Shown: piece by piece, positions 1,825 through 12,691 of the stretch
Position numbering within the stretch: the first letter of the stretch is position 1
How the letters are laid out: every line of letters starts with the position of its first letter
Translations under genes and position numbers: made by a program
The notes under the pieces: model-generated
What the model was told of the DNA's origin: nothing
Seen by the model: only the letters and a program-made list of their open reading frames with translations
The model's database searches: none
Virus record (IMG/VR): IMGVR_UViG_3300044614_003071
Coordinates: 1 to 24,181 of that record
Strand: one strand, 5' to 3'
Origin: a virus
Length of the DNA: 24,181 bases

Positions 1825-1863
1825 AAAGAGGTTCGCCATAATTAAAACATGGCGAACCTCTTT
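1825..1863 (+). promoter_or_regulatory. Perfect 15-bp hairpin burying the next start codon
   Basis: Bases 1825-1839 are the exact reverse complement of 1849-1863, with a 9-base AT-rich loop. The ATG of the metallophosphoesterase is the first codon of the 3' arm, so a transcript reading through from the reductase gene would hide it. No Shine-Dalgarno site lies upstream. The structure could be a start-occluding switch, as described for T4 genes e, soc, 49 and I-TevI. It could also act as a terminator for the reductase, but the tract after the plus-strand stem (CTCATTTC) is poor in T. Confidence 0.65.
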
Positions 1864-3978: not shown

Positions 3979-4504
3979 AAAAGTCATCTGCCATTTCTAA
4001 AAGATAATCTAGAGCTACACCTGTCCACTCTCTGTATTTTATAGCGTATTTGAATTCTTTTTCGGGCATGTCTGCTGTGAGAATAAAACTTATCCATGGT
4101 TTTCTAGTACGTTTCCAGCACAACATGGGTTTTCTTCCAGCACGATTGGCATCTTCCATGGCTTGGGATAGAAAAGAATCTAATTCTTTGCTACCATCCA
4201 TAAAAACACTTCCTATATCGATGCTATCGTAACCGCCTTTGCTTTCTATGGCGAATTTAAAACCTTTGGGAACAATCAGGTCGCCAGAGAAAATTTCCAT
4301 AGCGTGTTTAGGAAGAGATGCTTGTGCCCAACGAGCACCAGATGAAACTGTGCGACTAAATGCTGACTTAAAACGAGCCGTTAAAACCTTAGTTAATTCA
4401 AGTTCAGTTCGATTACCTTTTCGTTTGCCGTTGACTTTTTTTTTCTTTTTATTTTTAGAAATATCTTCTATTTGAAAATCATCTAAATCATCAAAATTGT
4501 GCAT
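3959..4504 (-). CDS. PD-(D/E)XK nuclease, Holliday-junction-resolvase-like
   Basis: A 181-aa protein. After a lysine-rich N-terminal stretch (about 18-30), GNRTELELTKVL (30-41) resembles the first helix of Hjc-type resolvases with its acidic residue. GDLIV (74-78) followed by AIESKGG (85-91) gives the D75 ... E87-x-K89 catalytic pattern. The likely role is cutting branched DNA before packaging or during recombination; another PD-(D/E)XK specificity is possible. It lies 27 bases downstream of the VWA gene in the same leftward unit. The ATG lies within the 3' arm of the perfect hairpin at 4496-4526 and no Shine-Dalgarno site is seen. The family is fairly sure from the motif; the resolvase role is inference. 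Confidence 0.72.
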   Translation of the reverse strand: MHNFDDLDDFQIEDISKNKKKKKVNGKRKGNRTELELTKVLTARFKSAFSRTVSSGARWAQASLPKHAMEIFSGDLIVPKGFKFAIESKGGYDSIDIGSVFMDGSKELDSFLSQAMEDANRAGRKPMLCWKRTRKPWISFILTADMPEKEFKYAIKYREWTGVALDYLLEMADDFFIHPDA

Positions 4505-4526
4505 ACTTTGTTATAGTATGCACAAT
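4496..4526 (-). promoter_or_regulatory. Perfect 12-bp hairpin burying the nuclease start codon
   Basis: Bases 4496-4507 are the exact reverse complement of 4515-4526, with a 7-base loop. In the leftward transcript the stem begins five bases after the VWA stop, and the nuclease AUG (4504-4502) lies in the 3' arm. The loop and its border read TATAACAA in the transcript sense, a weak match to the T4 late element. No T-tract suits a terminator in this direction. The geometry matches the 1825-1863 hairpin. Confidence 0.65.
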
Positions 4527-4531
4527 ATAAT

Positions 4532-5779
4532 TTAGACGAAGTCATTCAGATCATATATTTTGGAAGAAGGAGGAATAAACTCTTTAACGCTATTTGGTGT
4601 TAAAAACCAAAACCAGTTTTGTGGATTTTCAGGAGAGACAGCGTCCCCATACCCATCCGTCATAATCCAAACAGCATCTGGTTGGTGCTCTTTGTAATTT
4701 TGTTTAATATAAGTGTCAATTATCTTGAAGGAAGTGCCACCTCCGCCATGTATTTTTCTTGAAACGGCAGTAGTTAGTGTTACTTGGGTATCAAAGCACA
4801 GAAGTTCAACGTCAAAATATTTGGCTGGTAAAGACTCTGCTGCATTGAAAAATCTGTCCTTGAGATGCCAACAGGAACCGCTGGTGTCCAAGAAAAAAAG
4901 AACTTTGAGTCGGCCTTTTTCTATTTCGAAATCCTCTACTTCAAATTCTGTAGGTAGGAAAAAGCTTGTTTCCAAAAATATGAAACGTCTATGTTTACGT
5001 GCCCATTGATCTTGTTCCTTTGAAACGGAACGCATCATTTTCTGAGACCAATTGGTTACAGCGGTTTCCCACTTCCGTTTGACAGATTGTTTTTCTTTAG
5101 TAGCAATGTGCAGAGCGTTACCGGTAGAATTTCCTGCTTGGCTTTTAGGAGCGTGTTTATCATAAAACTTTTTGAGAGATTCTTTTTCTTCTTGAGTCAA
5201 ATCTTCATTAAGTTTTTTGAAAAATTCTTTTTCTTCACCATCTAAAAAATCATGAGAATCTAAAAGTTTTGAACCTTTTCCATCATAATTCTCTGGAAAA
5301 ATTCTGTTAAGTAGATTGAGGTAATATTCAGCAGTTTCATCTGTTGGTATGTCAAAATTGTTTACTTTTTTGTTTTTGAAAATAGTATCTACCCAACACA
5401 GTTCTTCCCAGTCGCTTATTTCCTCTCTGATAAAACCAAAACGATTAACCAGAGTATGATTTACTACCACATCCATAGCATAATTAGCTTTTAAATTATC
5501 TTTTGTATCTTTAAATCTTTTGCCATGCTGGAGAATAAGATGTAGAGACTCATGGCAAATTACAAATATTTTTTTATAAGTAGAAGAATTCTTCCAAAAT
5601 TCAGGGTTGAATAAAAAGTTTATAAAATTACCGCTTTTGTCAAAAGTAACACAAGCGGTATCTATTTTATCAGAAAGATATGGTTTGCCCATTTCGCCAA
5701 CCTTATAAAACAAGGAGTGATGATCAAGCAAGGCATAACAAATTTTTTTCCATTCATCGTCGCTAATTTCAACATTCAT
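4532..5779 (-). CDS. VWA-like protein with HExxH metallopeptidase-like domain (DUF2201 type)
   Basis: 415 aa from the chosen ATG. The N-terminal part carries CHESLHLILQH (H76-E77-x-x-H80, plus H85) followed by NYAMD, the layout of the putative metallopeptidase domain of DUF2201 proteins. A charged helical linker follows. The C-terminal part is a von Willebrand factor A fold with a complete metal-ion-dependent adhesion site: DTSGS (298-302), GGGGTSF (345-351) and TDG (374-376). It is the partner of the AAA ATPase upstream. I chose 5779 because its ATG overlaps the ATPase stop (ATGA) and GGAAGG lies upstream; an in-frame ATG at 5818 has no Shine-Dalgarno site and would overlap the ATPase by 43 bases. 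The substrate or target is unknown. Confidence 0.85.
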   Translation of the reverse strand: MNVEISDDEWKKICYALLDHHSLFYKVGEMGKPYLSDKIDTACVTFDKSGNFINFLFNPEFWKNSSTYKKIFVICHESLHLILQHGKRFKDTKDNLKANYAMDVVVNHTLVNRFGFIREEISDWEELCWVDTIFKNKKVNNFDIPTDETAEYYLNLLNRIFPENYDGKGSKLLDSHDFLDGEEKEFFKKLNEDLTQEEKESLKKFYDKHAPKSQAGNSTGNALHIATKEKQSVKRKWETAVTNWSQKMMRSVSKEQDQWARKHRRFIFLETSFFLPTEFEVEDFEIEKGRLKVLFFLDTSGSCWHLKDRFFNAAESLPAKYFDVELLCFDTQVTLTTAVSRKIHGGGGTSFKIIDTYIKQNYKEHQPDAVWIMTDGYGDAVSPENPQNWFWFLTPNSVKEFIPPSSKIYDLNDFV

Positions 5780-7215
5780 ACCCGCAGAATCCTTCCAAAA
5801 ATACCTGCTTGTTGGCATTTAGTAAACATTTTACCTATAGATTTATGTTCTTGAATCAAACATTCCAATATAGAAGGAGAGTAATTTTGTCTTGTAGTAT
5901 TTTTAATGGATTGCAAGCAATGATTTATAATATTAGGCAGCAATTTCAATTCTGGACGAAGCAGAGTTGTAGCCCAGCTGAGCTTGGTGATATGTGCTAA
6001 AGCGAGCATACATGATAAAGCATCAGACTCATCCATTTCTTTAAAAACACTAGATTTTATGCTATTAAAATTTTTGTCTAATTCATCCGTGCTGAGACTT
6101 GTTATGTCAAAGAAGGTGCTAAAATTTATGGTTTTTGGCTTATCTGCATAGTGTGCTGGTGCAGGCGTTTCGGGAATAGAGTCTTTGACTAAAGTATTTT
6201 CGTCTGTGTTGACAAAACGATGAAGCATTTTGACAAGCTTTTCATCTTGTCCAGCTATAACGATCTCCCGCATAATATTCCATAGGTCTTTATTTGTTTC
6301 GGAAGCGGAAGTGACAAAACGGCACACTGTGGAATTGTCTGCCATGAGACAAGATATACGTTCTTTTGGCATCAAAGGAACGTAGAACTCCATAAAATCT
6401 GGAGTAGATAAAATATACTTTATGCTGGAAAAATAATTATTGTCATTGGCTAAAAAAGCTTTAGCTCCTACTTTGTCGTTTTTTGTAAATAATTTTTTTA
6501 ATTTTGCTTCGATAGGTCCATTCTTTAAACCTTGTAACAGTTTGTTGATATTGGTAGAAACCGGCAAAATATCTTGCAAAGAACCACCAATAGAGAATTC
6601 ATCCAAAGCATATTCTAACCGTCTAGGAGAGACTTTATTCTTCTCTTCTTCAGGTAGTTCTTCCCACCATTCGACTGCAGCTGTAGCAGTATCTGAACCA
6701 TATTTTCCGGCGAACCAGTTAAGATTGGGTTTATATGGAATGTTTTGAATAATATGAAAACGGTCTTTTTGAGCCGGGTCTATTTTTTCTACATCATATA
6801 CATCATCTTCTTCGGGATTTATAGCAGCCCATACACATTTAAGGTTTGGAAATACCAAACCGTTAATAGACTTGAATTGCATCAATTCCATAACAGCGTT
6901 TCTGACTTTTTTGACAGAACGATTGAATTCATCAAAAAATATAGCAACAACATTACCATTAGCCAAAGCCTTAGGTCGAACTAATTCTAAATAAGTTTGT
7001 CCTTCAGCATTAGTGGTTTTTTCGGGAACACCAACTAGATCTACCCAAGGATCGAGAGTACTGGCGCTAAAGTACAAATATGTATCGCCATGTTTGAGAC
7101 CATTACGCTCAAAGCATGACTTAATCTGGGCCGTTTTACCTACACCATGTTTGCCTACAAACAAGACATTACGATTGTGCTGAAACCAAAAATCTAATTT
7201 GCTATCAGACAGCAT
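5776..7215 (-). CDS. MoxR-type AAA+ ATPase
   Basis: A 479-aa ATPase. Walker A is GKHGVGKT (21-28), Walker B is VVAIFFDE (89-96), sensor 1 lies in WAAINP (129-134) and a DR pair at 151-152 is the likely arginine finger. The N-terminal half is the nucleotide-binding core. The C-terminal half, about 200 residues, is unrecognised and probably helical. In cellular systems MoxR ATPases pair with VWA proteins (RavA-ViaA, NorQ-NorD, CbbQ-CbbO) to remodel or insert cofactors into client proteins, and the VWA partner is the next gene here. GGAGG precedes the ATG by four bases. The 60-base leader holds a tandem 11-base repeat. The client is not evident. Confidence 0.87.
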   Translation of the reverse strand: MLSDSKLDFWFQHNRNVLFVGKHGVGKTAQIKSCFERNGLKHGDTYLYFSASTLDPWVDLVGVPEKTTNAEGQTYLELVRPKALANGNVVAIFFDEFNRSVKKVRNAVMELMQFKSINGLVFPNLKCVWAAINPEEDDVYDVEKIDPAQKDRFHIIQNIPYKPNLNWFAGKYGSDTATAAVEWWEELPEEEKNKVSPRRLEYALDEFSIGGSLQDILPVSTNINKLLQGLKNGPIEAKLKKLFTKNDKVGAKAFLANDNNYFSSIKYILSTPDFMEFYVPLMPKERISCLMADNSTVCRFVTSASETNKDLWNIMREIVIAGQDEKLVKMLHRFVNTDENTLVKDSIPETPAPAHYADKPKTINFSTFFDITSLSTDELDKNFNSIKSSVFKEMDESDALSCMLALAHITKLSWATTLLRPELKLLPNIINHCLQSIKNTTRQNYSPSILECLIQEHKSIGKMFTKCQQAGIFGRILRV

Positions 7216-11301: not shown

Positions 11302-11820
11302 ATGTCCTCAGAATATTTAAACAACAAAAGCTTTGAATCTATTATTATAAGGTTTCAACATGCCAAGAAACAACAAATAAAGTTTCAAATCCTCATGGAA
11401 GATATTAATCATCAAAGGCAGAAAGCCAGTAAAAAAAACAGTGTTGCCATACCTTTGGTATTAGGAGCACAAGATCTTGAAAAAGCCGGGAACGACCTGA
11501 CTGCATCCCAAAAGATACTTGCAGATGCTTTTTATACTCTATCGAAAAACATTGTTAGGTATGCAAAGTTTAGCAATATAGATGAAGATGATGCTGTTCA
11601 AGAAGGTGTTCTTATATGTTTTGAACGTGTAGAAAAGTTTGATCCTAGCAAGGGTAAAGCTTTTAATTACATGACAACATGTATACTAAATCACTTTAGG
11701 CAATTATGGCGAACTGCAAAAAACTATACTGAATTGAAAAAGAAATATAGCAAGATTTTTGCGCTTAAGAACGGTATGACCCTGCAGGGCAGAAAGAAAG
11801 AAAGAAAAAAGAGTCACTAA
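11302..11820 (+). CDS. 55: T4 gp55-type sigma factor for late transcription (172-aa form)
   Basis: A minimal sigma-70 family factor that would recruit host RNA polymerase to phage late promoters. It aligns by eye with T4 gp55: EYLNNK (4-9) against YVNNK; DAVQEGVLICFERVEKFDPSKGKAFNYM (97-124) against the gp55 region-2 core ending HNFDETKYKNPHAY; and KNYTELKKKYSKIF against KKERKEVAKKYSYF. The ATG at 11302 is preferred; the longer frame begins with TTG at 11287. No Shine-Dalgarno site is visible. The zero-frame product ends abruptly in a basic tail soon after the region-2 core and lacks the acidic-hydrophobic clamp-binding tail of T4 gp55 (SLDFLYE). An in-frame slippery heptamer three codons before the stop leads into the next open frame. 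Confidence 0.82.
   Translation: MSSEYLNNKSFESIIIRFQHAKKQQIKFQILMEDINHQRQKASKKNSVAIPLVLGAQDLEKAGNDLTASQKILADAFYTLSKNIVRYAKFSNIDEDDAVQEGVLICFERVEKFDPSKGKAFNYMTTCILNHFRQLWRTAKNYTELKKKYSKIFALKNGMTLQGRKKERKKSH
11805..11811 (+). promoter_or_regulatory. Predicted -1 ribosomal frameshift site (A AAA AAG)
   Basis: The codons AGA AAA AAG of the sigma-factor gene contain A AAA AAG in the correct X XXY YYZ phase, the heptamer used in E. coli dnaX. The zero-frame stop is two codons later. A -1 slip reads GAG TCA CTA ATA GTT ATA ATG and continues in the open frame to 12074. AGGG lies 15 bases upstream and may act as the stimulatory Shine-Dalgarno element. No strong downstream hairpin is seen. Confidence 0.6.
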
Positions 11821-12655: not shown

Positions 12656-12691
12656 AAAAAAGCCCTCGAAATTTACTTCGAGGGCTTTTTT
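12656..12691 (-). terminator. Bidirectional rho-independent terminator after the tube gene
   Basis: A perfect 15-bp stem, 12656-12670 paired with 12677-12691, has the core GCCCTCGAA/TTCGAGGGC and a 6-base loop. A-runs and T-runs flank it on both sides, so it works in either direction. It lies 20 bases past the tube gene stop in the leftward sense. Confidence 0.92.

Follow-up and report, generated by a model that had tools for sequence, protein, structure and literature searches.

A predicted RNA hairpin over the start codon of a resolvase-like phage nuclease gene, and its possible role in silencing read-through transcripts

Why would a phage bury the start codon of one of its own genes in a perfect inverted repeat? 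The question is raised by a nuclease gene of a huge bacterial virus, in a record of 24,181 bases that is apparently a fragment of a larger genome; we call this whole stretch the window. The nuclease gene lies downstream of VWA and AAA genes on the same strand (Table 1), with a gap of 27 nt between the VWA stop and the nuclease AUG, and longer transcripts could enter it from upstream. Judged by the proteins encoded in the window, which include a gp18-type sheath, a gp19-type tube, a gp15-type sheath stabiliser, a T4-type baseplate protein and a late-type sigma factor, the phage is a T4-like tailed phage. A search of phage records for near DNA of the window found none, and among complete records the closest is LR756511, from an uncultured phage of 595 kb, whose nuclease and VWA proteins are 48% and 43% identical to those of the window. 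Closer than LR756511 are the IMG/VR contigs G002/G006, G003/G004 and G005 (the last being locus L010 in what follows), with VWA proteins 49-59% identical. The nuclease gene is present in 80 loci that were collected for comparison.

Table 1. Coordinates of the features discussed, numbered from the first base of the window
Feature	Position	Strand	Remarks
First start-occluding hairpin, 15 bp, on phosphoesterase gene (ATG 1849)	1825..1863	+	Kept in L007, L008, L009, L011
PD-(D/E)XK nuclease gene, 181 aa	3959..4504	-	Pfam PDDEXK_15; weak fold match to Hjc
Hairpin 3′ arm, 5′-AGUAUGCACAAU-3′	4507-4496	-	Contains nuclease AUG
Nuclease AUG	4504-4502	-	Letters 4-6 of 3′ arm; without Shine-Dalgarno
Hairpin loop, 7 nt, AUAACAA	4514-4508	-	Holds most of -10-like hexamer and in-frame UAA (4513-4511)
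Promoter-like element ACTATAAC (predicted)	4510..4517	-	5 nt before AUG; matches fixed-position AC-TATAWTA element of relatives
Hairpin 5′ arm, 5′-AUUGUGCAUACU-3′	4526-4515	-	Begins 5 nt after VWA stop UAA (4534-4532)
VWA/DUF2201-type metallopeptidase-like gene, upstream of nuclease	4532..5818	-	Stop 5 nt before hairpin 5′ arm
MoxR-like AAA ATPase gene, upstream of VWA	5776..7215	-	Same strand as VWA and nuclease
Late-type sigma factor gene	11302..11820	+	PHROG 234 'late sigma transcription factor', E 1e-8; Sigma70_r2

The first-pass annotation of this DNA had described a perfect 12-bp hairpin that begins five nucleotides past the VWA stop and holds the nuclease AUG in its 3′ arm, and by sequence this is exactly so. 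The predicted fold has an energy of -18.5 kcal/mol (z -5.7), with the AUG fully paired at a pairing probability of 1.00. No perfect stem of at least 12 bp over the AUG arose in 20,000 shuffles of the nuclease start region, and perfect stems of that length number three in the window against 0.08 per shuffled window. The nuclease start is fixed at 4504, because an in-frame UAA precedes it by 9 nt and a search of the ~30 codons that follow found no ATG, GTG or TTG; the N-terminus so defined agrees with that of L010 and of other relatives. The letters of the hairpin were read from one metagenomic contig and have no independent confirmation, because a 99%-identical contig (L004) ends inside VWA; the order of VWA followed by nuclease is seen again in L010 and L060.

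Start signals hidden in RNA structure are well documented in T4. In the genes e, soc, 49 and I-TevI the Shine-Dalgarno sequence, the AUG, or both lie within an RNA helix (PMC3014915), which bears out the earlier statement that T4 gene 49 is under hairpin control, and there, as is proposed for the window, the start signal is sequestered on long transcripts initiated upstream. A switch of this type is marked by translation of the short transcript and not of the long one, a difference of about 100-fold for e. Short transcripts without the 5′ arm arise from a promoter inside or immediately upstream, as documented for e and I-TevI and predicted for the window. Start hairpins of this mechanism class are also carried by I-TevII, I-TevIII, segB and Aeh1 mobE (PMC2988022), which show the same logic on nuclease genes downstream of others, although these are mobile homing endonucleases, the intron-encoded ones with a Shine-Dalgarno sequence, whereas the window nuclease gene is resident and its neighbourhood conserved. 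The T4 cases differ in a further respect, since it is usually the Shine-Dalgarno sequence that is hidden and then kept in the short mRNA; the window gene has none, its AUG is what would be hidden, and its short mRNA would be leaderless. Initiation without a Shine-Dalgarno sequence requires an unstructured AUG (PMC3121790).

A candidate source of such a short mRNA lies within the hairpin itself. Among the 26 nuclease genes without a Shine-Dalgarno sequence, the letters before the AUG are unevenly distributed (C at -12 and T at -11, 65% each; A at -8, 62%; T at -6, 69%; A at -5, 85%), and the element that they share reads AC-TATAWTA-N4-AUG. It appears as AC-TATAAC-AAAGT-AUG in the window, AC-TATATT-ACTAC-AUG in L010 and AC-TATGAT-ATTAT-AUG in LR756511. 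Of nine nuclease hairpins, seven have a TATAAT-like hexamer after the 5′ arm, where 3.0 would be expected (p=0.005), although the -10-like box of the window is TATAAC rather than an exact TATAAATA and has no -35 partner. In a clade of four loci (L062, L067, L072 and L070) the loop CTATATAAT is invariant while the arms vary, with three pairs changed on both sides; this covariation comes from four sequences only, and 29 of 500 shuffles were as good. A matrix derived from the nuclease genes of other phages peaks near the same offset in genes of the lineage and of LR756511 that lack a Shine-Dalgarno sequence, and not in those that have one. The letters of the element are not clearly shared by the other genes without a Shine-Dalgarno sequence, partly because their ORF-called starts are uncertain; we therefore claim a leaderless element for the nuclease alone, and a fixed leaderless motif for all such genes was dropped. 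The late-type sigma factor encoded in the window offers circumstantial support for promoters of the gp55 type. In some divergent gene pairs of the window (9205/9244 and 17169/17203) and of G002 (15181/15197) no more than 15-38 nt separate the two start codons, and several of these pairs have no Shine-Dalgarno sequence on either side, which suggests that many genes of the lineage are leaderless.

We propose that the hairpin acts in cis, as an RNA switch by which read-through transcripts are silenced. RNA from the AAA and VWA genes, which we infer to run across this site, would carry both arms and is predicted to fold into the 12-bp stem; with no Shine-Dalgarno sequence and the AUG in the stem, ribosomes should be unable to start. 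A promoter whose -10-like box ACTATAAC straddles the junction of 5′ arm and loop would direct transcription to begin at or near the AUG, and the resulting near-leaderless mRNA, lacking the 5′ arm, would be translated, probably late and under the phage's own late sigma factor. In silico, the AUG is unpaired when the window RNA begins at 4504-4507 and buried in a longer read-through RNA. In the clade that has a Shine-Dalgarno sequence, a transcript that began at the base of the 3′ arm would likewise leave out the 5′ arm. That the nuclease is made only from its own transcript, through a switch with an internal promoter, seems to us slightly the better side of an even bet.

Occluded starts turn out to recur at this gene. 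We folded the region from -45 to +20 around the nuclease start at 52 distinct loci (the window and 51 relatives) and scored a start as occluded where the fold beat its shuffles by 2 sd or more, with the AUG or the Shine-Dalgarno region paired. By this measure the nuclease start is occluded in 11 of the 51 relatives, compared with 29 of 561 (5%) other genes at these loci (Fisher p=1.7e-4); roughly three in four relatives have no such hairpin at the nuclease. The enrichment is also present when only genes with a same-strand neighbour at a distance of at least 10 nt are compared (9/24 nuclease genes versus 16/216 others, p=1.6e-4), and rescoring with new shuffles gave 10 of 52, the window included, against 1 of 52 shuffled sequences. 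With one sequence per 70%-identity cluster (15 clusters) the ratio is kept, at 18% versus 6%, and p rises to about 0.06; looser clustering leaves the test without power. On the nuclease tree the trait needs at least seven changes, and the hairpins of relatives have unrelated arm sequences with pairing kept. Occluding hairpins have thus likely recurred on the nuclease with differing stems. One case, L064, passes the score narrowly with a G+C-rich fold and is weak, and two of the strongest, L126 and L129, are not explained by read-through because their upstream neighbour is divergent, and were left out as support for the read-through model. At 7930-8000 of L126 a perfect 13-bp palindrome consists of two back-to-back TATAAT-AUG starts of divergent genes; DNA symmetry of this kind can mimic an RNA hairpin and is to be excluded in scans.

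The stem of the window was itself not inherited, because L010, which has the same gene order and a 67% identical nuclease, shows no stem in its 18-nt spacer (TACACACTATATTACTAC), L060 has a different one, and other relatives are differently arranged. Conservation of the exact stem at 4496-4526, on which the first-pass annotation had made its reading partly depend, was not seen. In L060 (nuclease 71% identical, VWA-nuclease order) a 9-bp stem lies instead over the Shine-Dalgarno sequence GGGGTG, with a z of only -1.3 that excluded it from the occluded counts. In most other relatives the nuclease gene is on the opposite strand, after an amidotransferase gene and convergent with VWA; relative to nearly all of them it is inverted in place, onto the VWA strand, in the window, L010 and L060. 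No identical hairpin was found in viral contigs, nor an identical or close copy of the VWA-nuclease spacer in any collection searched.

The strongest rival explanation is translational coupling, in which the stem would block the AUG until a ribosome finishing VWA opened it, which would tie nuclease synthesis to the translation of VWA. The two genes share a strand and are 27 nt apart, the 5 nt from the VWA stop to the 5′ arm allows it, and hairpin-bearing relatives mostly have gaps of 28-31 nt after the upstream stop. It counts against the switch that a ribosome halted at the end of VWA would sit over a large part of the 5′ arm and might melt the stem. Coupling, however, would require re-initiation without a Shine-Dalgarno sequence at an AUG 27 nt beyond the stop; the gene before the nuclease is in most relatives a different one, the amidotransferase gene, and coupling gives no reason for the promoter-like box that the loop retains. 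Moreover, the truly coupled loci L120 and L123 have overlapping stop and start codons and no hairpin. On balance we regard coupling as unlikely, with perhaps a fifth part of our belief.

If the hairpin silences read-through, occlusion should be in excess at genes that have a same-strand neighbour and not at divergent genes, and this is the pattern seen in the lineage test set (the window, G002, G004 and G005). Where a same-strand neighbour lies at a distance of at least 10 nt, 12 of 66 starts (~18%) are occluded and none of 66 shuffled; for divergent genes the counts are 1 of 56 and, shuffled, 2 of 56. The contrast between the two classes has p=0.003, though the 12 include a few homologous pairs. 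Applied to LR756511 (595 kb), the test gave 8/115 against 3 when shuffled, with 2/90 for divergent genes, which is little above chance. Of 169 starts, two have a long perfect stem that includes the AUG, and both are in the window; the phosphoesterase homologue in G002 ranks low in that long-stem scan because of one G-U pair. The earlier suggestion of a genome-wide rule thus stands as a minority tendency of the lineage (12/66 versus 0/66) and is otherwise overstated, given the two long stems and the near absence of an excess in LR756511. The broader proposal, that the lineage silences read-through by combining AUG hairpins with leaderless late promoters, so that a start dead on the long mRNA works on the short one, and that this evolved several times over on a single resolvase-like nuclease, is tentative and, on present sequences, rather doubtful. 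Some long stems of LR756511 hide a Shine-Dalgarno sequence just before a minus-strand start (64578-64618 and 37269-37295), for example AATACTCCTTT...AAAGGAGTATT.

The same data bear on whether the hairpin is a chance or mutational palindrome without a role, of the quasi-palindromic kind that builds up between genes. L010 lacks the stem, most relatives are stemless and LR756511 has many intergenic stems, all of which fit such an origin, but the absence of a comparable stem from 20,000 shuffles, the recurrence at the nuclease and the restriction of the excess to genes with a same-strand neighbour make it improbable. It would be more surprising still if the inverted repeat were a DNA operator around the promoter, bound by a dimeric repressor: the 12+12 palindrome does span the promoter-like box, and I-TevI provides a precedent by repressing its own late promoter (PMC2988022), yet within the window the half-site does not recur beyond chance, and in relatives paired half-sites were not found and the hairpins are unrelated in sequence yet paired. 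Equally little credence is due to an intrinsic terminator or 3′-end stabiliser of the AAA-VWA transcript that overlaps the next gene by accident, which would suit the position just after the VWA stop and the many stems that follow stops in this phage, but the stem is A+T-rich with only a short U run after it, did not appear in the terminator scan and looks different from the apparent terminator at 12656-12691.

What the switch would control is a protein with the PD-(D/E)XK core, matching PDDEXK_15 (PF24608) at 79.5 bits against a cut-off of 27, as well as PHROG 244 (RusA-like resolvase), and with G74-D75 and E87-S88-K89 invariant. A sequence-profile search of the PDB found no relative. In Foldseek comparisons of an AlphaFold2 model (mean pLDDT 81), the 16 best matches are archaeal Hjc resolvases without exception, but they score weakly (E 4e-3, TM 0.33/0.43). 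The nuclease may thus resemble Hjc in fold, and junction cutting is plausible; as on T4 gene 49, the gene of a junction nuclease, the hairpin would lie on a possible junction enzyme, which differs from endonuclease VII in its PD-(D/E)XK fold. The first-pass annotation went further and saw selection for delaying a junction-cutting enzyme. This was not established, because hairpins are also found on the phosphoesterase and other genes and cutting is suggested only by the Hjc-like fold matches.

If the proposed switch is correct, the T4 hairpin device would extend to uncultured huge phages, where it would have been re-made repeatedly, with unrelated arms, on one nuclease gene, and what is hidden would be the AUG of a presumably leaderless gene rather than a Shine-Dalgarno sequence. 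The harm that early junction-cutting enzymes might do to phages would become testable, and a hairpin combined with a TATAAT box at the AUG could serve as a sequence rule for recognising late genes of phages that cannot be cultured.

Two further stems deserve comment. The hairpin on the phosphoesterase gene was said to have the same geometry on the other strand with unrelated sequence, which we confirm; there the AUG forms the first three letters of the 3′ arm. In the four relatives that keep this hairpin one pair has changed on both sides. It was absent elsewhere in the phosphoesterase family, and start hairpins of the MPE family outside the lineage are at the background rate (4/69, a count that includes two lineage members). 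Kept along with the hairpin in the four relatives is a promoter-like pair, TTGCAA/TTGAAA - 17 nt - CATAAT, with the -10 box at the loop. The third perfect stem of at least 12 bp in the window, AAAAAAGCCCTCGAA / TTCGAGGGCTTTTTT at 12656-12691, lies between two tail-tube-like genes and looks like an ordinary bidirectional intrinsic terminator.
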